Shown in pieces: positions 5,118 through 24,586 of a stretch of DNA of 32,577 bases. The stretch lies in NCBI GenBank assembly GCA_021776055.1, contig JAJFGP010000164.1:1-32577 (forward strand), written 5' to 3'. The stretch's first letter is position 1. The number at the start of each line of letters is the position of its first letter. A model generated the notes under the pieces. That model did no database searches, was not told the origin of the DNA, and saw only the letters and a list, made by a program, of their open reading frames with translations. The translations under genes and the position numbers were made by a program. The stretch is from Kiloniellaceae bacterium (GTDB taxonomy: Bacteria > Pseudomonadota > Alphaproteobacteria > Kiloniellales > J153).

Positions 5118-8100
5118 CTATGCCGCGTTGGCATTGCCGATGAGGCGATCGGCGGGCAAGCGGATCGTTGCGATCGAACCTGAGCCGATCTCGCTGGTGA
5201 TCATCAATTCGCCGCCATGAGTTTCCATAAGGGCACGGCTCAGCGGTAAGCCGAGACCGGTACCCTCGGCTGAGCGGCTGAGCGTCGAATCGGCCTGAAC
5301 GAATGGTTCCATGACGCGCTCGAGATCGGTTTGGGCAATACCGATACCGGTGTCGATAACCCGCAGGATCATGCCGTCGCCGGGTTCGCCTCTGAGTTCG
5401 ACGGTGATCCCGCCTTTTTCAGTGAACTTGACGGCGTTGGAAAGTAGGTTGAGCACGACCTGCTTCAAGCGCCTTCGGTCGGCGCGGACCTGAATGTTTT
5501 CCTGCGGCAAATCAGTTTCGACCGTCAGGTTCTTTTCCGTTGCCCGCGGGCGTATCAGACGCAGGCACGCCTCGATGATGTCGGCCATTTCCACAACTTC
5601 CTCGGAGAGCTCTATCATACCGGCCTCGGCCTTTGATACGTCGAGGATGTCGTTGATGAGTTCCAGTAGATGCCGGCCACTATGTAGAATATCGCCGGCG
5701 TAATCTTTGTAATTGGCATGGCCCATCGGGCCAAAGAGCTCTTGCATCATCACTTCGGAGAAACCGATGATGGCATTGAGCGGCGTGCGCAACTCGTGGC
5801 TCATGGTGGCCAGGAATTCGCTCTTCGTCCGGTTGGCGTATTCGGCCGTTTCCTTGGCCGCGAGAAGTTGGTGTTCAGCCCGCGTACGCTCGATCACGCG
5901 GCCGATCTGCGTGCCGACGTGGGTCATCACCTCAAGGGCCATCGGATTCAACTCGGTCGGTACATCGGAGAAGAACTCGAGAACTCCGGCGACCTCGGTG
6001 CCAATGGTGATCGGAAAACCGAATGCCGCGTGTATTCCGATGTCAGATGAGATGCGAACCCTTTTGAAATTCCCTTCCTTGCCGATATCGGCAATCCAAC
6101 TCGCCTCCCTACTCTCCAGGATATGTCCCGGCATTCCGACGCCGCGGGCGAAGCGAGTTGCCATCGTGATCTCGCGAAACTCCTCAAACCGCGGGGCATC
6201 GGCGAGGGACCAGATCGGGCTGGGCACAAGTTCGTTGGCATGATCCTCGGCAAGTAGGTAGGCATGGCCGACCGGCCAACCGGTATGACGACAAACTTCG
6301 TCCAGACACACCTGCAGCGCACTCTCGATCGAAACGGCTTCGTTTGCGGCCGCGGCGACCGCTTTTGACAGTTCGATGAAGACCGTCCGTTGACGCAAGG
6401 CTTCCTGCGCTTGCTTGCGTTCCGTAATGTCACGCATCGCACCGATGAAAAGACGGCGCCCGCCGTGGCGCATCTCCGTGACCGAGAGCTCTACCTCGAC
6501 GGTCGAGCCGTCTTTTCGTGATCCGGTGACCTCTCGGCCTGCCACTCCAAGGATATTCGACTTTCCAGTCTCGACGTATTGTTGAAGATCGTTATCGTGT
6601 TGACCGCGCATGGGCATGGGCATGAGCAATGAGACATTGCGGCCGATAAGCTCTGCCGCATCGTATCCGAACAATGCTTCGGTTGCTGGGTTGACTGAGC
6701 CGATGATGCCCAATTGATCGATCGTCACAAGGCTGTCCGCGACATTGTCCATGATCGCTCGGATTCGCTGCTCGCTTTCCCGGATCGCCGATTCGGCCCG
6801 CCGTTGTTCCGTAACATCCTGTACGGTGCCGCGAAGGAAGGCCGGTGTAATATTACCGTCGAACTCCACCTCGCCCTGCTCGTGTACGATGCGTTCGTTG
6901 CCATCGGGCAAAACGATACGGTGGTCAATGCTGTAAACTGTTCCGGAAAGGGCCCGGCGCGCGGCTAGTTGAACGAAATCGCGATCGTCCGGGTGAATGC
7001 GGCGGAAAAAATTGTCGTAAGTACCGTCGAAATCTTCAGGTGTGATCCCGAAAATGCGATAGGTCTCTTCCGACCACGTCAACTCATTTGTAACCAGATT
7101 CCAATCCCAATTACCTAACCGCGCGATACGCTGCGCATTCGTTAGGCTGGCCTCGCTCTTGCGGAGCGCGTCTTCTGATTTTCGACGTTCGGTGATGTCA
7201 GCGTAGGTCGTGACAAAACCACCATTGGGCATTTTTGTGCCGCGAATCTCGAGAACAATGCCATCTGGTCGTACACGCTCTATTTGATGAGGGGCGAACT
7301 TTCGAGCCAATTCGACCCGTTCGCGCACTTGTTCCACGACGTCGCCGGGACCGTATTCGCCACGCTCCGCGTTGTAACGGATGAAATTCTCAAACGGATC
7401 GCCAGGGCTAAAAAGTTCAGGCGGAAATTCAAGCAACTCAAGGAAACGGTGATTGAATGCAACAATGTTGAGTTCGGTATCGGCGACACTGATGCCTTCG
7501 GCCATGTTTTCGAATACGGTTTCAAGTAAGTTGGCGGTCTGGTGGTGCTCCAACTCGGCTGTCACTTCGGCCGTCACATCGCGACCACTGCCACGATAGG
7601 CGGTGAGTTGCCCCTGTTGGTCATAGGCGGGTTTGCCGGAAACACGAATGTAGGCATCGCCTCGGTCCGGCGATCGGTAGCGAAATTGTAAATCGCGGAA
7701 GGCTTCTCCGGCGGCCATGTATTCGCCAATGGTAGCGCTGTGGTCGGGTTCGGCGACTCCACTCCATAAATCCTGGCGCAATTTTCCGATGGGTGATTCC
7801 GACTCTCCGCCGATTGTCCCCCAAATGTCGTCGATCGTGCCATTGGCGGAGTAGTATGTGAATCGCTGATCGAGGTCCGTCTCCCAGAACCAGTCGGACG
7901 CTGATTCGGCGAAGTCTCGGAATCGAATTTCGCTTTCGCGCAGAGCTTCTTCGGCTCCTTGCTGTTGAATGGCGATACCAACCCAGCGGGCAATGATACT
8001 CATCAACTCGTGCTGTTCTGTGTCCAGAAAATCCGGTCGATCATTGATGGCAAAGACGTGCCCGACCAACCGGCCACCGGCGTCGCGGATTGCGTGGCCG

Positions 8101-9914
8101 CGGTAGCTGGCGGCTCCGACCTCGCGAAGAAAGGTGTCTTGCGGAAAACTTTCGGCAACCTGATCTGGGTAGAAGCAATATTCCCGTCCATTGGCAACAT
8201 CAGCGCAAGGCGTGTCTGCGAGAGCGTATTCAAATGGCTCAGCTGGCGCATCGGTATCCCACATTGCCAGGACTTTGGCGTGGCCGTTGCTGCGGAAGCG
8301 ACTTATGCCAGCCCAACGGTATCCCAGCCCGAACGCTAGCGCCCTGACGGCCGCATCGAGGAAATTTATCTCCCCGGTGCCACCCTCGACCAAAATCGCG
8401 AGAGCCTGCTCGCGCCGCTTGAGCAGTGTAATTTCGGTCCACGACGTGATGGTGCCGCCCTCGGTGGTCTTGGTTTCGCCGATCTGGACCCAGCGACCGT
8501 CGCGTTGCTGTTGCTGCAAAGGCTCGCTTGATGGTTCGCGGTGGGCGGCTAGGCGCTGTTGTATAAAGGCTTCGTGGTCATGGTTGATGGCGAAAAGATC
8601 TATTTCCGCTGCGCCGCGCAGGATTTCCTCGAAGGTGTTACCGGGAACCATAAGGTGTCCGGCGTCAGGGTAGATGACCTTGTGTTTGCTGTTACAGAAG
8701 ACAAGTCGGTCCTCGGCGTCGAATAGGGCAACGCCATGCGGCATGCTTTCGACGGCGTCGCGCAGACGTTGATCCAGCCGCACCGCTTGCTGTCGTGCCT
8801 CGAACTCAGGCGTTAGATCCGTGCCCGTACCTCTGTAGCCCAAAAATTTGCCGTCGGAGCCGTACGCCGGTTTACCGCTGACTCGTATATGGCGCATCCT
8901 GCCATCGGCACCTGCAAGGGTGTATTCGAGGTTTCGGAAATGCCGCCGAGCGTCCAGGTCCTCAAGGTGTTGTTGCCAGGTTGTCTCATTTGGATCGCCA
9001 CCCAGCAGTTCACGCCGGGTCTTGCCGATCATATCGGGCCCTTTCAAGCCGGTGACTTGCTCGAGCCGTTCGGAAAAGAATGTGAAGCGAAGATCCGGCC
9101 CTGTTTCCCAGATCCAGTCCGCGGCGACCTCCGCAATATCTCGGAAACGTTGCTCGGATGCCTCGATTTGGCTCGCGGCGGTGCGGCTTACCCAGTTCTC
9201 GCGCTGCTGCGCAACAATGAGTAGGCTTGTTAGCGTAAAAAGAGATAGGCCGAGGTCTCCAGCCAACGACCAACTGCTGGCCCACAGACTAGTTTCGCGG
9301 CCGGAGCTGATTGCACTCTGGATGCCAAAACCCTCGATCGCGTGGACGGTGTCGCCCATCAGGTACGCGATTGTGAGGGAAAGCGGGATGACTACAGCGG
9401 CGTACCCATACCATCCATCGGTGCGGTGCCGAGAACGGAATAGCCACAGCATCGTGATGAAAGCGGCGGTCGCTGTTGCTAGAAGAACGATCTCAATAAG
9501 TTCTGATGCCGGCTGGAACATCGTTCCGATGACAATGGCGCCGCTCGTCAGCAAGGCAGCCATGACAAACGTTGGCGGATGCCGCTTGTCGCCGATGAAC
9601 CGTAGGCAACCTGCCAGCATGAGTAGAGAGACAGGTGCGTGGCCGCCATCGCCGATAAGATCGGCATGCACATTGAGCATTGAGTCGGAGATTGCAATCA
9701 GGGCAAGGCGCAAGGCCTCGACCGATAGCGCCGCGGCCCACCAGAAAAGCGCGGGGTTGCCCATGCGCTGACGGGCGAATAAATACATGAAGCCGGCCAG
9801 TTGGGCCGAGACGATCGCGCCAGCGACAGCAAGGGTATCGGCGAAAATATCTTGCACCCTGGGGCCTGTAAAGTCTTTCCATGTTGCGCGCTGCGGCGGA
9901 CAAATGCCACCCAC
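5118..9914 (-). CDS. Large membrane-bound multi-PAS/GAF sensor histidine kinase
   Basis: A 1598-residue sensor kinase. Residues about 25-235 form around seven hydrophobic segments (membrane sensor). Then follow PAS1 (252-370), PAS2 (381-500), GAF1 (515-650), PAS3 (661-785), PAS4 (792-910), PAS5 (921-1040, WDWNL type), PAS6 (1046-1168), GAF2 (1178-1345), HisKA with phospho-acceptor His1373 in [10 protein letters not shown], and HATPase_c with N1489/N1493, DTGIGI (1521-1526) and GTGLGL (1551-1556). It ends without a receiver domain, and no response regulator gene lies in the window, so its partner is elsewhere. PAS1/PAS3 are near copies of each other, pointing to module duplication. The start is uncertain: the GTG at 9914 lacks a good ribosome site, and the GTG at 9857 (before [10 protein letters not shown]) is an alternative. 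It lies 122 bases downstream of apt on the same strand. Confidence 0.93.
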
Positions 9915-10036
9915 CGGGCCATTTGGGATGATATGGCGTCAGCGCGAGCAGGGTTGCCCCGAGCTGGGACCTTGCCCCGTGCTTGGTTAAGTTGTCGTTA
10001 AGGTATGGCGGAGACCCGCTGCTTCCGCGGCAGCGC

Positions 10037-14216: not shown

Positions 14217-16817
14217 ATGTCGGATCATCGGGGCGTCGACGGTAGCGAGCCGGCAAATGACGCCGATCTGGAGGATATGGTCGCATCGACCGACGTTGGC
14301 GCGCGCGCGCCAACGGGGATGACGCAAAGGATTCTGCTGGGGACCGCGCTTGCGTGGTCCTTCTTTCAGCTTTGGATCGCCTCGCCACTGCCTTTCATTT
14401 TGGGCATCGGTGTTTTCAACGACACCATTGCCCGCTCGATCCATTTAGCATTCGCGGTCTTTCTGGCCTTCCTCGCCTATCCGGCCTTTCGCCGCTCGCC
14501 GCGCGACCATGTGCCCATTGGCGACTGGATCTTTGCGATTGCAGGCGCCCTGGCGGCAGCCTATGTCGCGGCCTTTAATACCGAGCTTTCGGGCCGCCCC
14601 GGCGCACCGATTTTGCAAGACGCGGTCGTTGCCGTCATCGGCATGATTTTGCTGCTGGAAGCCACGCGCCGGTCGTTGGGGCCGGCGCTGACTATTCTTG
14701 CCAGTCTTTTGCTGATCTATACTTTTGTCGGTCCCTATATGCCGACGATTCTGGCGCATGGGCCGAAAAGTTTGAACACCGTGGTCAATCACCAATGGGT
14801 GACGACCGAAGGTGTCTTTGGCATCGCGCTGGGCGTTTCGACGAAATTTGTGTTTCTCTTCGTGTTGTTCGGAGCGTTGCTCGAAAAGGGCGGCGCCGGC
14901 AACTATTTCATCAAGGTTGCGTTCTCGCTGCTTGGCCATCTGCGCGGCGGGCCGGCAAAGGCCGCTGTCGTCTCCTCCGGCATGACGGGCCTTATTTCCG
15001 GCTCCTCCATCGCCAATGTGGTTACGACGGGAACCTTCACAATTCCCTTGATGAAGCGTGTGGGATTCAGCTCGGAGAAGGCGGGGGCCGTTGAGGTCGC
15101 TTCTTCCGTCAACGGTCAGATCACGCCGCCGGTCATGGGCGCGGCCGCCTTCCTGATGGTCGAGTACGTGGGCATCCCCTACACAGAGGTGATCAAGAAT
15201 GCGTTCTTGCCGGCCGTAATTTCGTATATCGCACTGGTCTATATCGTTCATCTGGAGGCCATGAAGGTTGGCCTCGAGGGATTGCCGCGGTCGAGTCCGC
15301 CGAAGCCCTGGATGGTCCGGCTTCTCGGCATGCTGACCGGATTTATTATCGTCTGCGGACTAGCGGCTATCGTTTACTACGGTCTGGGGTGGACGAAGGA
15401 AGCGTTCGGTGATGCAACCAGCTACATCGCCGGGTTGGTGTTGGCCGCCGCCTATGTCGGTTTAATGTGGTATGGCGCGCGCTATCCGGAGCTGGAGCTT
15501 GATGACCCGAACGCACCCGTTGTCACCTTGCCGGAAGCCGGTCCGACGGTGCGTGTCGGTTTGCACTATCTGCTGCCGGTGGTCGTCCTTGTTTGGTGTT
15601 TGATGGTCGAGCGGCTATCACCGGGCCTCTCGGCGTTTTGGGCGGCCGCCTTAATGCTCGGCATACTTGTCACACAGCGTCCGATCGAGGCGGTCTTCCG
15701 CAAGCGTGGCCTTGCCGGTAGCTTCAAGCGCGGCTGGGACGAATTGGTCGACGGCCTGATCACGGGCGCGCGCAATATGATCGGCATCGGCATTGCCACG
15801 GCGGCGGCCGGCGTTATCGTCGGCACCGTCTCGCTGACCGGTGTCGGTGCGGCCATGACTGATGTGGTCGAGTTGATCTCCGGCGGGAACATCATGCTTA
15901 TGCTGTTCTTTACGGCTGTTCTTAGTCTGATTCTCGGTATGGGGTTGCCGACAACGGCTAACTATATTGTGGTCTCGTCGGTTATGGCGCCGGTCATCGT
16001 CGAGTTGGGCACGCAATCCGGATTGCTGGTGCCGCTGATTGCGGTTCATATGTTCGTGTTCTATTTCGGCATTATGGCCGACGTCACACCGCCGGTTGGT
16101 CTTGCGTCTTTTGCAGCGGCGGCGATATCGGGCGGCGATCCGCTGAAGACCGGTTTCATTGCGTTCTTTTATAGCCTGCGCACGGCCCTTCTGCCGTTCT
16201 TGTTCATTTTCAACACGGATTTGCTACTCATCGACGTGGACTTTGCGCACGGAGTACTGATATTTGCGGTGGCAACGATAGCCATGATGTTGTTCGCGGC
16301 CGCATCACAAGGCTATTTTATGGTGCGAAGCCGGATGTACGAGACGGCGGTACTATTGGTCGTGGCATTCAGTCTGTTCCGGCCAGGTTTCTGGATGGAT
16401 ATGATTGCGCCACCGTTTGAGAGCGTTGCGCCGACGGAGATCGTCCGTGCCTTGGGTGACGCGGAGCCCGGTCAGGAGCTTCGCCTAACCGTTCAGGGCG
16501 AAGATGATGTGGGTCTGCCACGCCAATTCGTGACTATCCTGCCGGTGCCCGAAGGTGCCAGTGGGGAAGAACGTCTCGAAACCGATGGCCTTGAATTGCT
16601 TATCCAAGAGGGCGAGGTCTTGGTGGACAATGCCGCGTTTAGCAGTCCGGCCGCCAAGGCTGGCCTTGAGTTCGACCAAAAGATCATTCGAGTTGACGTG
16701 CCGACATCGCCGCCGCCGAAAGAGCTGATCTTCATACCGGCGCTCCTTCTGCTGGGGTTTGTCGTCTTCGCCCAGAGACGGCGGTCAGCGGCGGAAAATG
16801 CCGCTGCCGCAGCGTAA
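14217..16817 (+). CDS. TRAP transporter fused permease (DctQM type, TAXI system)
   Basis: Integral membrane transporter of 866 residues in which the small (4TM, DctQ-like) and large (DctM-like) TRAP subunits are fused, the usual partner of TAXI receptors. A polar stretch of about 40 residues precedes the first membrane segment. Large-subunit hallmarks include SGMTGLISGSSIANVVTTG (near 258-276), SSVNGQITPPVMGAAAFL, and LGMGLPTTANYIVVSS near 575-590. The part after about residue 700 contains two to three more hydrophobic segments and a soluble loop (about 735-835), fitting the DUF3394 extension of many such proteins. The ATG at 14217 is preceded by a G-rich stretch. A UspA gene follows 15-18 bases later. 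Function as a secondary importer is secure; the substrate is not. Confidence 0.95.
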   Translation: MSDHRGVDGSEPANDADLEDMVASTDVGARAPTGMTQRILLGTALAWSFFQLWIASPLPFILGIGVFNDTIARSIHLAFAVFLAFLAYPAFRRSPRDHVPIGDWIFAIAGALAAAYVAAFNTELSGRPGAPILQDAVVAVIGMILLLEATRRSLGPALTILASLLLIYTFVGPYMPTILAHGPKSLNTVVNHQWVTTEGVFGIALGVSTKFVFLFVLFGALLEKGGAGNYFIKVAFSLLGHLRGGPAKAAVVSSGMTGLISGSSIANVVTTGTFTIPLMKRVGFSSEKAGAVEVASSVNGQITPPVMGAAAFLMVEYVGIPYTEVIKNAFLPAVISYIALVYIVHLEAMKVGLEGLPRSSPPKPWMVRLLGMLTGFIIVCGLAAIVYYGLGWTKEAFGDATSYIAGLVLAAAYVGLMWYGARYPELELDDPNAPVVTLPEAGPTVRVGLHYLLPVVVLVWCLMVERLSPGLSAFWAAALMLGILVTQRPIEAVFRKRGLAGSFKRGWDELVDGLITGARNMIGIGIATAAAGVIVGTVSLTGVGAAMTDVVELISGGNIMLMLFFTAVLSLILGMGLPTTANYIVVSSVMAPVIVELGTQSGLLVPLIAVHMFVFYFGIMADVTPPVGLASFAAAAISGGDPLKTGFIAFFYSLRTALLPFLFIFNTDLLLIDVDFAHGVLIFAVATIAMMLFAAASQGYFMVRSRMYETAVLLVVAFSLFRPGFWMDMIAPPFESVAPTEIVRALGDAEPGQELRLTVQGEDDVGLPRQFVTILPVPEGASGEERLETDGLELLIQEGEVLVDNAAFSSPAAKAGLEFDQKIIRVDVPTSPPPKELIFIPALLLLGFVVFAQRRRSAAENAAAAA

Positions 16818-18979: not shown

Positions 18980-19094
18980 GCCGCTTTTCCGGCCTTAAGC
19001 CGTCCTTAACTTCCGGTAAAGCACAATCGATGCTTGGCATGACACTGCCCGGGTCGCGCCTGGGTTGCGGGGTTCCAGCCGAATCCGGCAGCGC

Positions 19095-19119
19095 AGTTCC
19101 GATCTGGCACTAGGGAGAG
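19095..19119 (+). promoter_or_regulatory. Leader element shared with the second DUF2336 gene, plus ribosome site
   Basis: AGTTCCGATC (19095-19104), preceded by CCGGCA, lies 27 bases before the ATG at 19122. The second DUF2336 gene has CCGGCA then AGTTCCAATC 29 bases before its ATG. AGGGAGAG (19112-19119) is the ribosome site that fixes the start. The shared element shows that the duplication included the upstream region, or that both are bound by the same factor. Confidence 0.4.
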
Positions 19120-19121
19120 CC

Positions 19122-20252
19122 ATGAGTACCAAGCCAACGCCACCCATGTTAACGCAAGCCGATGTGGCCAGGTTGCTGGCCGATCCGTCCGGGGACGTGC
19201 GCGCGAAAACGGCGGGCAAGATTGCCGGGCAATTTGATGCGCATCAGCTTAGCCCCAGCGAGCGTAAGATTGCCGAGGACATATTTCGCGCCCTTGTGAA
19301 GGACGCCGAGGAATTGGTCCGTGAGGCTCTCTCAGCGCAACTCAAATCCTCAACTGATCTGCCTCATGATGTCGCTCTCTCGCTGGCTCTGGACATCGAT
19401 TCCGTTGCCCTGCCGATGCTCAAGTTCTCGGAAGTGCTCACCGACGAAGATCTGATTGAGATCGTGCGCGTGAGCGGCTCCGCCAAGCAGGTCGCCGTTG
19501 CCCAACGCGAGAGTGTTTCCGCGAAAGTCTCGGATGCGGTTGTCGATACGGGCAACGTCAATGCGGTAGCTCGACTTGTCGGCAATGAGGGAGCGTCAAT
19601 CAGTGATGCCGCGCTTGATCGCGTGATCGACGAATATCAAGATGCCCCCGCGATTGCCGATTCATTAGCGCGACGCTCCGATCTGCCGCCGGCGATCTCC
19701 GAGCGTTTGGTGTCGGCGCTTTCCGAACGGATGCAGAACTTCCTTGTCTCGAAGCATGAGATTTCGCCGGATGTTGCCAGCAACCTGATTTTGCAGACCC
19801 GTGAACGGGCGACCATGAACTTGGTCGACTACGGGTCCAGTGATACCGAACTCGACAATCTGGTCCAACAGCTGCACCGCAAGGACCGGTTGACGGCGTC
19901 GTTGTTGCTACGGGCGCTGTGTGTCGGCGATCTGAATTTCTTTGAACGCGCGATGTCGTGTTTGACCGGATTGCCGGTCAACAATGTTCGCATCCTGATC
20001 CATGACAAAGGAATGTTGGGACTGGAGCCGCTGTATCTGCGCGCGAAGTTGCCAAAAACATTGTTTCCTGCCTTTCGAGCCGCTGTTCAATTGGTGGTCG
20101 AGACCGACTACGATGGCGGACACAATGACCGCGAGCGCTACATCGAACGCTTGCTGGAGCGCATGCTGACTCAGTTCAATGATCCGGCAAAGCGGATTGC
20201 CCCGAACGACATTGAGTATCTGATGGCAAAATTGCAGCAGATTGCCGCGTAG
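19122..20252 (+). CDS. DUF2336 family protein, first of tandem pair
   Basis: Soluble 376-residue, strongly helical protein of the DUF2336 family, known mostly from alphaproteobacteria and without a clear biochemical role. No signal peptide or membrane segment is visible. Repeating helix pairs such as ALSLALDIDSVALPMLKFSE and AIADSLARRSDLPPAISERL suggest a HEAT-like or similar helical-repeat scaffold (inference). The ATG at 19122 is chosen because AGGGAGAG lies just upstream and because the protein then has exactly the same length as its downstream paralogue. The two align without any gap across 376 residues, with identical blocks at 50-61 and 93-111. The 113-base gap to the second gene contains its own leader. 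The pair probably arose by tandem duplication. Confidence 0.9.
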   Translation: MSTKPTPPMLTQADVARLLADPSGDVRAKTAGKIAGQFDAHQLSPSERKIAEDIFRALVKDAEELVREALSAQLKSSTDLPHDVALSLALDIDSVALPMLKFSEVLTDEDLIEIVRVSGSAKQVAVAQRESVSAKVSDAVVDTGNVNAVARLVGNEGASISDAALDRVIDEYQDAPAIADSLARRSDLPPAISERLVSALSERMQNFLVSKHEISPDVASNLILQTRERATMNLVDYGSSDTELDNLVQQLHRKDRLTASLLLRALCVGDLNFFERAMSCLTGLPVNNVRILIHDKGMLGLEPLYLRAKLPKTLFPAFRAAVQLVVETDYDGGHNDRERYIERLLERMLTQFNDPAKRIAPNDIEYLMAKLQQIAA

Positions 20253-20305
20253 CTCGCTTGACAGTACAGGCCTTGGCGAACTCAACGTATTAAAGGTCGA
20301 TTAAC

Positions 20306-20354
20306 CCTATCGGACGATACTGCCGACGAGCCGGCATAGTTCCAATCGGATAGG
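20306..20354 (+). promoter_or_regulatory. Imperfect long hairpin / leader of second DUF2336 gene
   Basis: CCTATC (20306-20311) pairs with GATAGG (20349-20354), and inside it TGCCG (20321-20325) pairs with CGGCA (20332-20336), giving a 49-base imperfect hairpin that ends 12 bases before the ATG at 20367. It contains AGTTCCAATC (20338-20347), the element also found before the first paralogue. Folding could expose or hide the ribosome site (AAGAGG). The first gene has the sequence element but no equivalent outer stem that I can see. Confidence 0.4.
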
Positions 20355-20366
20355 CTAAGAGGCGCG

Positions 20367-21497
20367 ATGAGCGAAGATTTCCAGCCAAGCCGTCTTTCCA
20401 AGGAAGATGTTGTAAAATTGATGGCCGATCCGTCGGCCAAGAATCGTGCCGATGCGACGGGCAAGATCGCGGCGCAATTCGGTACAGACGAGCTTAGTCC
20501 GGCAGAGAAAACAATCGCCGAGGACATATTTCGCGCCCTTGTCAAAGACGTTGAGGTGCGCGTGCGCGAGTCGCTTTCGACGCATCTCAAGTCGAGCCAG
20601 GATGTGCCGCATGACATCGCCTTGGCGCTCGCCAGGGATGTGGACTCCGTGGCATTGCCGATGCTGAAGTTCTCGGAGGTCCTGACCGACGAGGATTTGG
20701 TTGAAATCGTCCGAGATCAGGGCGCGACGAAACAAGTGGCGATCGCCCAGCGCCCGCGCGTTTCCAGCACGGTTGCGGACGCGCTGATCGATACCGGCAA
20801 CGAGACGGCCGTGGCTCGATTGGTTTCCAATGAAGGCGCGGAAATCACAAATACATCGTTAGAGCGCGTGATGACCGATTACAGCGAGAGTACGGCGGTC
20901 TCCAACTCTCTTTCGCGCCGACCCAGCTTGCCGGCGGCCCTCTCCGAGCGTTTAGTGGGCGCTATTACCGAGCGCCTGCAGGAGTATCTGACGACGACCA
21001 TGGAGTTGGCTCCGGATGTCGCCAGCAATCTGATTCTGCAGGCGCGCGAGCGAGCAACCATGGGCCTAGTCGAATATGGGTCCACCGATACGGAGCTGGA
21101 GAATCTAATAGAACAGCTCTATCGCAAGGATCGGTTGACGCCGTCGCTTCTGTTGCGCGCTCTTTGTGTTGGCGATGTGAATTTCTTTGAGCGGGCTCTG
21201 GCCATGCTCGCGAGCGTGCCGCTGAAGAATGCCAGAATGCTTATTCACGATCAGGGCTCTCTTGGCCTGCAGTCGCTCTACCTCAAGGCCGAACTTCCGC
21301 GTCGCCTTTTCCCGGCCTTTCGTGCCGGCATCGATGTTGTGGCCGAGACGGAGTATGACGGCGGATCGAACGACCGGACCCGCTATATCGAGCGGATGTT
21401 GTCGCGGATGCTCACTCAATTCGAGGATCCCGCCACCCGCCTGTCGCAGGACGATATCGACTACTTGATGGGCAAGCTTAACGAGATCGCCGCGTAA
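20367..21497 (+). CDS. DUF2336 family protein, second of tandem pair
   Basis: Second 376-residue DUF2336 protein, collinear with the upstream one without gaps; well over half the residues match by eye. Shared blocks include IAEDIFRALVKD (50-61), DSVALPMLKFSEVLTDEDL (93-111), PDVASNLILQ, ERATM, LLLRALCVGD and the C-terminal KL-(x)-(x)-IAA. Differences concentrate in the N-terminal 20 residues and in residues about 140-230. The ATG at 20367 follows AAGAGG at good spacing. The gene converges on the TRAP permease gene with only two bases between stop codons, so there is no room for a dedicated terminator and read-through antisense RNA is likely on both sides. Function unknown; keeping two full-length copies suggests that they differ in partner or expression, or act together. 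Confidence 0.92.
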   Translation: MSEDFQPSRLSKEDVVKLMADPSAKNRADATGKIAAQFGTDELSPAEKTIAEDIFRALVKDVEVRVRESLSTHLKSSQDVPHDIALALARDVDSVALPMLKFSEVLTDEDLVEIVRDQGATKQVAIAQRPRVSSTVADALIDTGNETAVARLVSNEGAEITNTSLERVMTDYSESTAVSNSLSRRPSLPAALSERLVGAITERLQEYLTTTMELAPDVASNLILQARERATMGLVEYGSTDTELENLIEQLYRKDRLTPSLLLRALCVGDVNFFERALAMLASVPLKNARMLIHDQGSLGLQSLYLKAELPRRLFPAFRAGIDVVAETEYDGGSNDRTRYIERMLSRMLTQFEDPATRLSQDDIDYLMGKLNEIAA

Positions 21498-21499
21498 GC

Positions 21500-22867
21500 C
21501 TAATCGAGTAGCAACCGTGGCAACCAGAGTGCGAGATCTGGAAAGGCCATCACCAAACCCAATCCGACGAGCTGCAGGATGACGAAGGGTATGATCCCTT
21601 TGTAGACTTGCTGGATCCGCACCTCCGGCGGGGCCACGCCTTTGAGGTAGAACAGGGCGAATCCGAAGGGGGGTGTGAGGAACGAGGTCTGCAAGTTGAC
21701 CGCCATCAGGATGGCGAACCAGTAGACCACCTCGCGCGGCATGACGTGATTGCCGAAATCCAAGAGCTCGATGATCGGGGCGAAAACCGGCAGGACGATG
21801 AGCGTAATTTCGATCCAATCGAAGAAAAAGCCGAGAAAGAAGACCAACCCCATCAGCAGAATGAGCAGGCCCCACGAGCCGAGGCCAAGGCTTTCCACCG
21901 TGCTGATGACCATGTCGTCTCCACCCAGCGCCCGGAAGACGTAAGAGAAACACGTCGCGCCCAGGAATATGCCGAAGAGCATGGCCCCGGTCAGCGCCGA
22001 GCGCTCCACCACGTCGGTCATAACTTTCCAGCTTAGCTTGCGTCCGACGACGGCCAGTAGGAAGGCGCCCGCGGCGCCAACGCCGGCCGCCTCGGTAGGG
22101 GTTGCCCAGCCGAATAGGATGGAGCCGAGAACGAGGAATATCAAAAACAGCGGCGGCACGAAGCTGCGCAACACCATGACGATAAGGGCGATCGTGGTTT
22201 GCGGGCCCATGTGATCCGGCAAAGGCGGCGCCAACTTGGGGCGCGCCCCGCAGATCACAAAGATATAGAGCATGTAGAACCCGGCGAGCAGGAAGCCGGG
22301 GATAATCGCGGCAACGAATAGGTTGCCCACCGACCGTGACAGCAAATCCGCCATGATGACGAGCATGATGCTCGGTGGAATCAAGATGCCGAGGGTGCCG
22401 GAGGCGGCGATGGTCCCCGTCGCCAGGGGGATGTTGTAGTTGCGCTTGACCATCACGGGCAGCGCCAGCAACGTCATCATGACCACGGAGGCGCCGATGA
22501 TCCCCGTCGTTGCCGCCATGATTGTGCCCATCAAGGTCACCGACAGGGCCAAACCACCGGGCACCCGGCGCAGCAGGACCTGGAGGCAGTTGAGCAGATC
22601 GTTGGCGACACCGCTGCGTTCCAGCATGGTCCCCATGAAAATGAACATCGGAATGGCGGTGAGGACCGGGTTCTCGGCGATGCCACCCCATATGCGCGGC
22701 GCCAAGTTGAAGAACTGGATGAAATCGAAGACGTCGAAGGCCATGCCGATGAAGCCGAAAGTCAACCCGACCCCACCCAGAACGAAGGCCACCGGATATC
22801 CGCAGAAGAGCAGGAGGGCCAGGACTAGGAACATGAAGGCGGGCAGGTAGTCGACGAAATGCATCAT
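21500..22867 (-). CDS. dctM: TRAP transporter large permease subunit
   Basis: Large membrane subunit of a DctPQM transporter, 455 residues, about 12 hydrophobic segments. Family hallmarks are present: FIFMGTMLERSGVANDLL (near 75-93), TGTIAASGTLGILIPPSIML (near 146-165), the FGWATPTEAAGVGA segment (near 247-260) and NLQTSFLTPPFGFALFYLKG near the C-terminus. The ATG at 22867 (a second ATG follows at once) overlaps the small-subunit stop by one base (TGATG), so translation is coupled. It mediates sodium- or proton-driven uptake of the ligand delivered by the receptor at 23528-24586. Its 3' end abuts the DUF2336 gene tail to tail. Confidence 0.95.
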   Translation of the reverse strand: MMHFVDYLPAFMFLVLALLLFCGYPVAFVLGGVGLTFGFIGMAFDVFDFIQFFNLAPRIWGGIAENPVLTAIPMFIFMGTMLERSGVANDLLNCLQVLLRRVPGGLALSVTLMGTIMAATTGIIGASVVMMTLLALPVMVKRNYNIPLATGTIAASGTLGILIPPSIMLVIMADLLSRSVGNLFVAAIIPGFLLAGFYMLYIFVICGARPKLAPPLPDHMGPQTTIALIVMVLRSFVPPLFLIFLVLGSILFGWATPTEAAGVGAAGAFLLAVVGRKLSWKVMTDVVERSALTGAMLFGIFLGATCFSYVFRALGGDDMVISTVESLGLGSWGLLILLMGLVFFLGFFFDWIEITLIVLPVFAPIIELLDFGNHVMPREVVYWFAILMAVNLQTSFLTPPFGFALFYLKGVAPPEVRIQQVYKGIIPFVILQLVGLGLVMAFPDLALWLPRLLLD

Positions 22868-23460
22868 CAGTCCGGACCGGCCCGCTTTATGGGGGCCTCG
22901 ACCAGACGTACGGCCTCGGTTTCCTCGGTTTCTTGGACCTTGGCGCGAAGATCGGGCGGGCCGAAGAGCTCCACCAGCTTGCGGAAGACGGTGGCCACTC
23001 CCGCCAGAGCCAGCAACCCGAAACCTACGGGGATGACCGATTTGATGATCCAGCGATAGCTAAGGCCCGTGGCAGAAGCCGAGATTTCGCTGGTGGCGAA
23101 GGAGCGCACTGCAAAATCGTAGCTGAAGTAGATGATGAGCGCACAGTACGGCAGGAGGAAGAGAAAACAGCCGGCCAGCTCGATCCACCATTGCGTCCGC
23201 TTGCCCAGGCGCTCGCGGACAAGATCGATGCGAACGTGCGAATCCTTGAGATAGGCATAGCCGATGAGCAGGGCGAACAGCACAACATGCATGTGCCATT
23301 CGAACTCCTGAATTTTCGTCGAGCCGAGAACTAGAAAACGCCGGGTGATCACATCGAAAATGGTCGTCACGATCAAGATGACGCCCGCCCACGCGGCGAT
23401 CTTGCCGATACGGGCCAGCAACCAGTCAATCCAGTCGCTGATCCTGGTCAAGACGTCCAT
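22867..23460 (-). CDS. dctQ: TRAP transporter small permease subunit
   Basis: Small 4TM subunit of the same TRAP system, 197 residues. Hydrophobic segments lie at about 15-35, 48-66, 92-112 and 135-160. The features VITRRFLVLGSTKIQEFEWH (near 38-57) and AYLKDSHVRIDLV (near 69-81) are typical of DctQ proteins. The C-terminal tail (about 165-197) is longer and more charged than in the shortest homologues. The ATG at 23460 is 67 bases after the receptor stop on the same strand, and its own stop overlaps dctM by one base. Gene order receptor-small-large is standard for TRAP operons. Confidence 0.93.
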   Translation of the reverse strand: MDVLTRISDWIDWLLARIGKIAAWAGVILIVTTIFDVITRRFLVLGSTKIQEFEWHMHVVLFALLIGYAYLKDSHVRIDLVRERLGKRTQWWIELAGCFLFLLPYCALIIYFSYDFAVRSFATSEISASATGLSYRWIIKSVIPVGFGLLALAGVATVFRKLVELFGPPDLRAKVQETEETEAVRLVEAPIKRAGPD

Positions 23461-23527
23461 GATGCCCGGCCCCCCGACGGCAGGCGCCGAGGCCCGGAAG
23501 CCTCGGCGCTTGTCTTAGCCGTTGTTA

Positions 23528-24586
23528 CTAGAGGTAGCCCAGCTCTTTCCAAACCGCGTATTCGGCTCGGAACGCTTCCAGAGATTCCCAGACTTCCTTG
23601 AAGGAAGGATCCTCGGCCACCAATTCTGCGGCGACCTCTTTCCAAGCTCCGCGCAGCGTGTCGAGAATTTCCGGCGACCAACGGTGGATGTTGACGCCCT
23701 TCTCCTTGAGCTCCGCCAAGGCCTTCCCCTGAATGGCCTCGCCTTCGGCCAAGCCCTCGCGGAAGTTGTCGCCGCAAGCAACTTCGATCTGTGCTTGCTG
23801 CGTCTCCGACAGCGCCTCCCACTTGTCCTTGTTCATCATCAGATCGAAGAGTGTCGACTGCTGATGCCAACCGGGGAAGTAGTAGTGCTTGGCGACCTGG
23901 TAGAAGCCCAGTTTGAGATCGATGGCGGGCATGGAAAATTCCGTCGCATCGATGGTGCCGCGCTCCAGGGCCGGATAAATGTCGCCGCCGGCGAGAAGTT
24001 GGGTCGAAACACCAAGCTTTTCCATGACCTTGGCGCCGAGACCGAAGAAGCGCATCTTTAGGCCTTTGAGATCATCGACGCTTTTGATTTCCTTGCGGAA
24101 CCAACCGGAAGCCTCTGGCGCGATGATGCCGCACATCACCGACTTGATGTTGTACTTGGCGTAGATCTTGTCCATCAACTCCTTGCCACCGCCATAGTAA
24201 AACCAGGCCATGTACTCACCGGCGCTGGGCCCAAACGGGACGGCCGCGAAAAGGGTCAGTGCCTTTTCCTTGCCAAACCAATAGCCGGGTGTCGACCAGG
24301 CCGCATCGAGCGAACCAGCGGAGACGGCATCGAACATTTCGAGCGGCGGTACCAACGCGTTCGGCTCGAAGAATTTCAGTTGCAGATTACCGCCGGAGAT
24401 ACGATCGATCTTGCTGGACAGGCTCTTGCCGAGCGAGCCGAGCTGAACGAGTTTGCCGGGATAGGCACTGCCCATTTTCCATCTGACAGCTTCCTCGGCG
24501 GATGCTGTCCCAACGGATGCCAAGCCAAGGCTGGCTCCGAGCGCCAACGCGGCGACCGTGGAATAAATTTTGTGACGTCTTGTCAT
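23528..24586 (-). CDS. dctP: TRAP transporter DctP-family solute-binding protein
   Basis: Periplasmic receptor of 352 residues. The signal peptide is MTRRHK followed by a long hydrophobic stretch, with cleavage near TASA/EE (residue 30). The conserved carboxylate-binding arginine of the family is Arg179 in DLKGLKMRF. GGDIYPALERGTIDATEF (200-217) and KLGFYQVAKHYYFPGW (225-240) resemble the branch that includes the 2-oxo acid receptor TakP, so an organic acid ligand such as a keto acid or hydroxy acid is likely, though the WVGP-type pocket of TakP reads EFSMP here. GGGGAGGA before the ATG at 24586 is a strong ribosome site, as expected for an abundant receptor. First gene of the dctPQM operon. 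Confidence 0.94.
   Translation of the reverse strand: MTRRHKIYSTVAALALGASLGLASVGTASAEEAVRWKMGSAYPGKLVQLGSLGKSLSSKIDRISGGNLQLKFFEPNALVPPLEMFDAVSAGSLDAAWSTPGYWFGKEKALTLFAAVPFGPSAGEYMAWFYYGGGKELMDKIYAKYNIKSVMCGIIAPEASGWFRKEIKSVDDLKGLKMRFFGLGAKVMEKLGVSTQLLAGGDIYPALERGTIDATEFSMPAIDLKLGFYQVAKHYYFPGWHQQSTLFDLMMNKDKWEALSETQQAQIEVACGDNFREGLAEGEAIQGKALAELKEKGVNIHRWSPEILDTLRGAWKEVAAELVAEDPSFKEVWESLEAFRAEYAVWKELGYL

Follow-up and report, generated by a model that had tools for sequence, protein, structure and literature searches.

What two adjacent genes of the Pfam family DUF2336 encode, what controls them and why both are kept are the questions raised by the stretch of Kiloniellaceae DNA analysed here, which is 32,577 nucleotides long and is referred to below as the window. 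The preliminary description of this DNA saw in them tandem paralogues of equal length that align without a gap, and this part of it was confirmed, with 376 residues in each protein and 64% identity between the two. The coordinates of the genes and of the features upstream of them are given in Table 1.

Table 1. Positions of the SpbR-family genes and of their upstream features in the window
Feature	Position	Strand	Remarks
CtrA box TTAAGCCGTCCTTAAC	18995..19010	+	Perfect TTAA-N7-TTAAC; starts 127 nt before the first ATG
Weak -10-like hexamer CACAAT, copy 1	19022..19027	+	27 nt from box start; assigned by analogy; no ATANT match
Leader words, copy 1	CCGGCA 19085-19090, AGTTCC 19095-19100	+	Judged chance; absent in 15 other clade genes
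SpbR-family (DUF2336) gene, copy 1	19122..20252	+	376 aa; Pfam PF10098 266.4 bits; NCBIfam SpbR 470.8 bits
CtrA box TTAAAGGTCGATTAAC	20290..20305	+	Perfect TTAA-N7-TTAAC; starts 77 nt before the second ATG
Imperfect hairpin, copy 2 leader	20306-20354	+	Unsupported; 5' arm overlaps predicted -10
-10-like hexamer GATACT, copy 2	20316..20321	+	26 nt from box start; predicted; fits family ATANT peak
Leader words, copy 2	CCGGCA 20331-20336, AGTTCC 20338-20343	+	Judged chance; absent in 15 other clade genes
SpbR-family (DUF2336) gene, copy 2	20367..21497	+	376 aa; Pfam PF10098 252.9 bits; NCBIfam SpbR 473.9 bits

Family membership and predicted fold

For Pfam DUF2336 (PF10098) as such it is correct to say that the family lacks a known function, but this is not so for the subfamily found in the window, which NCBIfam names SpbR. 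Both proteins score above the curated cut-off of 400 bits of the equivalog model NF052659, with residues 10-371 matching model positions 1-358, and Caulobacter vibrioides, the control genome of the search, likewise exceeds it. The DUF2336 domain, for which the Pfam gathering score of 34.6 served as cut-off, is nearly complete in both (profile positions 1-256 and 1-258 of 262), the Pfam family being broader than SpbR. Judged by curated score, the window pair is assigned to the SpbR family, cell-pole proteins of Alphaproteobacteria.

In Caulobacter, SpbR is located at the cell pole and binds PopZ. SpbR of Caulobacter crescentus is reportedly the subject of work by Wang and Bowman from 2019, the title of which names regulated proteolysis. 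The function given to SpbR here is borrowed from Caulobacter via the curated model, its basis being the NCBIfam name, this one title and general background. The window proteins resemble the Caulobacter protein in that they and the Caulobacter genome exceed the equivalog cut-off, but the window has two adjacent copies, and the polar location and the PopZ link are predictions here. SpbR is a little-studied protein: a search of the open-access literature found two papers that name SpbR alongside Caulobacter, one of them relevant, but no paper on DUF2336 or PF10098, none that links SpbR with PopZ and no SpbR-CtrA link in print.

An AlphaFold2 model built from 29 sequences is all-helical, with a mean pLDDT of 79.7 and a pTM of 0.59 (the structure alignment left out L060, a related partial protein). 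The first ~200 residues of the model resemble HEAT/ARM-like repeats such as alphaRep, the PP2A scaffold and importin with Z up to 11.6, which falls below the level of about 13 at which a match may reflect just a common arrangement. The best Foldseek match had an E-value of 1.6e-4 and a TM-score of about 0.3, only generic repeat proteins being returned, and a PDB sequence search remained without a match up to E = 1. The modelled repeat fold is a common arrangement, compatible with a protein-binding adaptor but no proof of anything beyond that.

Elements upstream of the two genes

The real element common to both genes is a predicted CtrA box, which the preliminary description had missed. CtrA is a master cell-cycle regulator in Alphaproteobacteria, and the predicted boxes tie a little-studied family to its control. 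The window has three copies of TTAA-N7-TTAA where 0.07 would be expected, at 18995, at 20290 and, upstream of a kinase gene described below, at 9987-10001.

A -10-like hexamer was assigned downstream of each box. Of the 74 perfect boxes, 42 have an ATANT motif that begins 27-28 nt from the box start, with a mean of 1.9 in shuffled sequence. According to PMC4287350 and PMC11264516, Caulobacter promoters activated by CtrA have the full motif beginning near -35 (at -39 in ctrA P2), and a full motif in this position goes with predivisional expression. Compared with these promoters, the window has the perfect consensus plus a C, and a -10-like hexamer tends to lie at a fixed distance family-wide; the hexamer of copy 2 fits and that of copy 1 does so weakly, the transcription starts here being predicted. 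By analogy, the spacing from box to ATANT would be the geometry of CtrA-activated promoters.

We consider it probable that the pair encodes CtrA-activated polar SpbR adaptor proteins with a helical-repeat fold, in two copies that each have their own CtrA-type promoter. In the predicted mechanism, binding of phosphorylated CtrA to TTAA-N7-TTAA at the -35 region would bring in RNA polymerase. Both proteins would accordingly be made while CtrA is active (in predivisional cells, in Caulobacter terms) and would then act at the cell pole. The all-helical, HEAT/ARM-like product would most likely work there as a protein-binding adaptor, perhaps with PopZ as its target.

The boxes might alternatively be used by another TTAA-preferring regulator, for example one like MucR or SciP, and not be activated by CtrA. 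According to PMC4287350, MucR and SciP also act on CtrA promoters in Caulobacter, but the strict N7 spacing and the fixed distance from box to -10 are as expected for CtrA at -35, and we regard this alternative as quite improbable.

A further alternative takes the features noted at first, namely the words CCGGCA and AGTTCC(G/A)ATC in both leaders together with a hairpin before the second ATG, as a control element of the pair that acts post-transcriptionally. The words do stand before both window genes, and the 49-nt hairpin was moderately stable when folded alone, with z = -2.59 (6/200 shuffles as good), for a region chosen post hoc. As a conserved element, however, the words failed: between box and start, the exact CCGGCA and AGTTCC occur only in the window's two among the 17 clade genes and in 0/15 of the others, among them the two from the same-genus genome (L038), and their spacing differs between the copies (4 nt in copy 1 vs 1 nt in copy 2). 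The 90-nt leader containing the hairpin is not unusually stable (z = -0.59; 52/200 shuffles as good). The hairpin was reported for copy 2 only, and its 5' arm lies over the predicted -10 and would precede the predicted RNA start at about 20328. We judged words and hairpin alike to be due to chance and rejected them as control elements; a post-transcriptional role for them is extremely improbable. What stands of the claim that two full-length copies were kept with a common control element is that both are kept and that an element is shared, this element being the CtrA box.

The box among relatives and in the own genome

The search of relatives covered 58 genomes including the window's own, and all of the 51 genes in 42 genomes that exceeded the SpbR cut-off were examined. 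We counted TTAA-N7-TTAA within 200 nt upstream of start codons assigned by script, using eight other spacings (N3-N6, N8-N11) as controls. A perfect box precedes 50/51 of these genes (the own two included), compared with 0-3/51 for the other spacings; with at most one mismatch the figures are 51/51 at N7 and 3-32/51 elsewhere. Relatives are not independent samples, and the 50/51 count spans five families: f1, to which the window belongs (17/17), f4 (21/21, one gene appearing under its named duplicate locus), f2 (3/3), f5 (5/5) and f6 (4/5).

DUF2336 genes under the cut-off are mostly without a perfect box, which was found for 10/63 among the matches listed (0-7/63 at other spacings). The difference from the 50/51 SpbR genes gives a Fisher p of 6e-21, uncorrected for kinship and, for the lower group, among the matches listed. 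If one mismatch is allowed, boxes are also frequent under the cut-off (46/63 among the matches listed, vs 6-22 at other spacings), and the loose box is therefore not special to SpbR but reaches beyond it.

Further afield, 15/24 named loci from Kordiimonas, Emcibacter and other Alphaproteobacteria, unscored against the cut-off, have a perfect box (other spacings 0-3). The class-wide sample comprised 48 genes from 70 over-cut-off genomes, chosen from the top DUF2336 hits and in most cases limited to one for each family; the perfect box precedes 9/48 of these SpbR genes (0-2 at other spacings) and the box with at most one mismatch 32/48 (vs 4-11), while 0/12 class genes under the cut-off had a perfect box upstream. 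These main counts use NCBIfam's own cut-off. An alternative score of 405, picked after the boxes were known, gave 69/80 vs 6/58 within 250 nt upstream, and 7/29 vs 2/31 class-wide. Given the perfect boxes in relatives and the looser class-wide counts, the box looks ancient on sequence comparison, strict in the window's order and looser elsewhere. A near-invariant CtrA box in the order would make SpbR a member of the CtrA regulon far outside Caulobacter as well, and would time its production.

The surroundings of the pair were scanned in other genomes of the family. No perfect box was found in four flanking stretches (65 kb: L244, L246, L248 and L250). L252 (13.9 kb) and L253 (19.1 kb) have no perfect boxes other than the two upstream of the SpbR genes. 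The remaining four flanks have 1-2 boxes each, at most 600 nt from the pair-side end, where copy 1's own box sits. In one genome (G007, L098) the copy 1 gene has two perfect boxes, at -220 and -125.

The window's own genome encodes CtrA (L179:1066-1797; NF045991, 426.8 bits, cut-off 350). Locus L174 was considered for this role and rejected, its sequence and neighbour resembling PhoB and PhoU by eye. TTAA-N7-TTAAC has 35 matches in this genome vs 6 for the reversed control; these correspond to 28 places, since seven palindromic ones enter the count on both strands, and loci were available for 30 of the 35 matches. Four of the 28 places precede DUF2336 genes, two in the window and two at a paralogue on contig 3. 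Among 20 open reading frames that begin within 350 nt of the examined boxes, 11 have a Pfam family and 9 do not; the families include FtsZ, ClpX, MotA, bactofilin, a Tad-type protein, a ParA-like ATPase, two transglycosylases and the contig 3 DUF2336 protein. This gene set is of the sort expected of CtrA. The contig 3 paralogue (L010 of G000, gene at 1695-2924) has an SpbR score of 341, under the cut-off, and its two perfect boxes lie at -194 and -54.

Duplication, retention and the motile pole

A tree of 138 DUF2336 proteins was built with a quick method. All 17 f1 genes form one clade (SH-aLRT 99), which argues against the copies being unrelated acquisitions; within it the copy 1 genes are a subclade of 8 (SH-aLRT 99), and the 9 copy 2 genes are not recovered as one clade. 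The simplest explanation is that the gene was duplicated in tandem once, together with its promoter, in the common ancestor of the bacterial family. The box predates this duplication, since the SpbR genes of neighbouring families, which lie outside the f1 clade, also have it.

Two copies over the cut-off are present in 8/9 f1 genomes, the ninth (G004) being 59% complete. The copies are adjacent in 7 of them; in G002 they are on two contigs and are probably not adjacent, as one sits well inside its contig. Of the 49 genomes outside f1 in the search of relatives, G056 alone has two such copies, and in the class sample two were found, for which a limited number of candidates was scored per genome, only in the window's genome. 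Another tandem DUF2336 pair, with SpbR scores of 320-348, occurs in family f6 (L129, L133) and appears to be an independent parallel of the window pair. A perfect CtrA box is found upstream of each copy at L129 and of one copy at L133, where the box of the other copy is 289 nt from the chosen start.

Comparison of the window copies with those of the same genus gave dN/dS values of 0.074 (copy 1) and 0.085 (copy 2), indicating that both are under purifying selection. Equal length had been taken as a sign of a functional pair, and we rejected it as such: lengths vary among the eight two-copy genomes, with 376/376 in just four, 375/376 in three and 376/369 in one, the last depending on a script-chosen start codon. 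The CtrA box is no sign of pairing either, because single-copy SpbR genes carry it too.

Two accounts of why both copies persist are compatible with activation by CtrA. In one, two equivalent copies raise SpbR output from CtrA promoters; both copies have the same promoter type, and fixed differences between the copy sets are limited to 4 residues. Dosage gene pairs are often homogenised, however, and here the copies stay 56-66% identical within genomes across the family, the longest identical run between the window copies being 26 nt. We consider this explanation possible but somewhat unlikely. In the other, the ancestral SpbR role has been split, for example between old and new pole or between subunits of a heterodimer. 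The presence of two copies in nearly all genomes of the family, the constraint on both, their degree of divergence and the separate promoter of each copy are in line with such a division of labour; the few differently fixed sites, the lack of a supported copy 2 clade in the quick tree and the same box on both promoters are not, and dosage alone would also retain two copies. This second account seems to us unlikely. The tandem pair, with a box for each copy, is a natural experiment that asks if a single pole protein can be divided in two.

The window's own genome has a gene for DUF2497, which we take to be PopZ, the polar organiser (G000:C4:33458-33685; 69.3 bits, cut-off 27), and also encodes FliF. 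The DUF2497 gene is found in 52/58 genomes, including all seven without any DUF2336; SpbR therefore does not follow PopZ, and a link between the presence of the two was rejected. CtrA is found in 52/58 genomes (E up to 1e-80) and is absent in four of the seven DUF2336-free ones. One genome with SpbR and box (G055) had no CtrA match at E 1e-80 and no fliF match, perhaps because of an assembly gap.

In a hand tally of the 58 genomes, 40 have both SpbR and fliF, 7 fliF only, 2 SpbR only and 9 neither (Fisher p 4.5e-5, uncorrected for kinship). There is thus a weak indication that the presence of SpbR goes with fliF and not with the PopZ gene. The fliF pattern is similar to that of the losses in PMC12700997 and hints at a role of SpbR at the motile pole. 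On a wider and more tentative reading, which we hold to be unlikely as a whole, CtrA-SpbR would be an ancestral circuit of several alphaproteobacterial orders in which the master regulator helps to build the pole that organises its own control. This circuit would have been duplicated whole here, giving two SpbRs that may serve separate poles and whose main job may be to build the motile pole and not to control PopZ.

The third box in the window (9986-10001), also perfect, lies ~72 nt before the start of a gene for a 1598-residue PAS/GAF histidine kinase (5118-9914, - strand). The kinase portion of this protein matches the models for PdhS (260 bits), FixL and DivJ, but with scores well under the cut-off of each. 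Two other genomes (L247, L251) have relatives of the kinase close to the pair, and no perfect box was found near them. In six other f1 genomes, genes that neighbour the pair in the window flank it as well. TRAP transporter genes occur on both sides of the pair in the window, at 14217-16817 (a DctM protein with DUF3394) and 21500-24586 (DctM/DctQ/DctP), and their relatives are present in the flanks of some, not all, of the six genomes examined.
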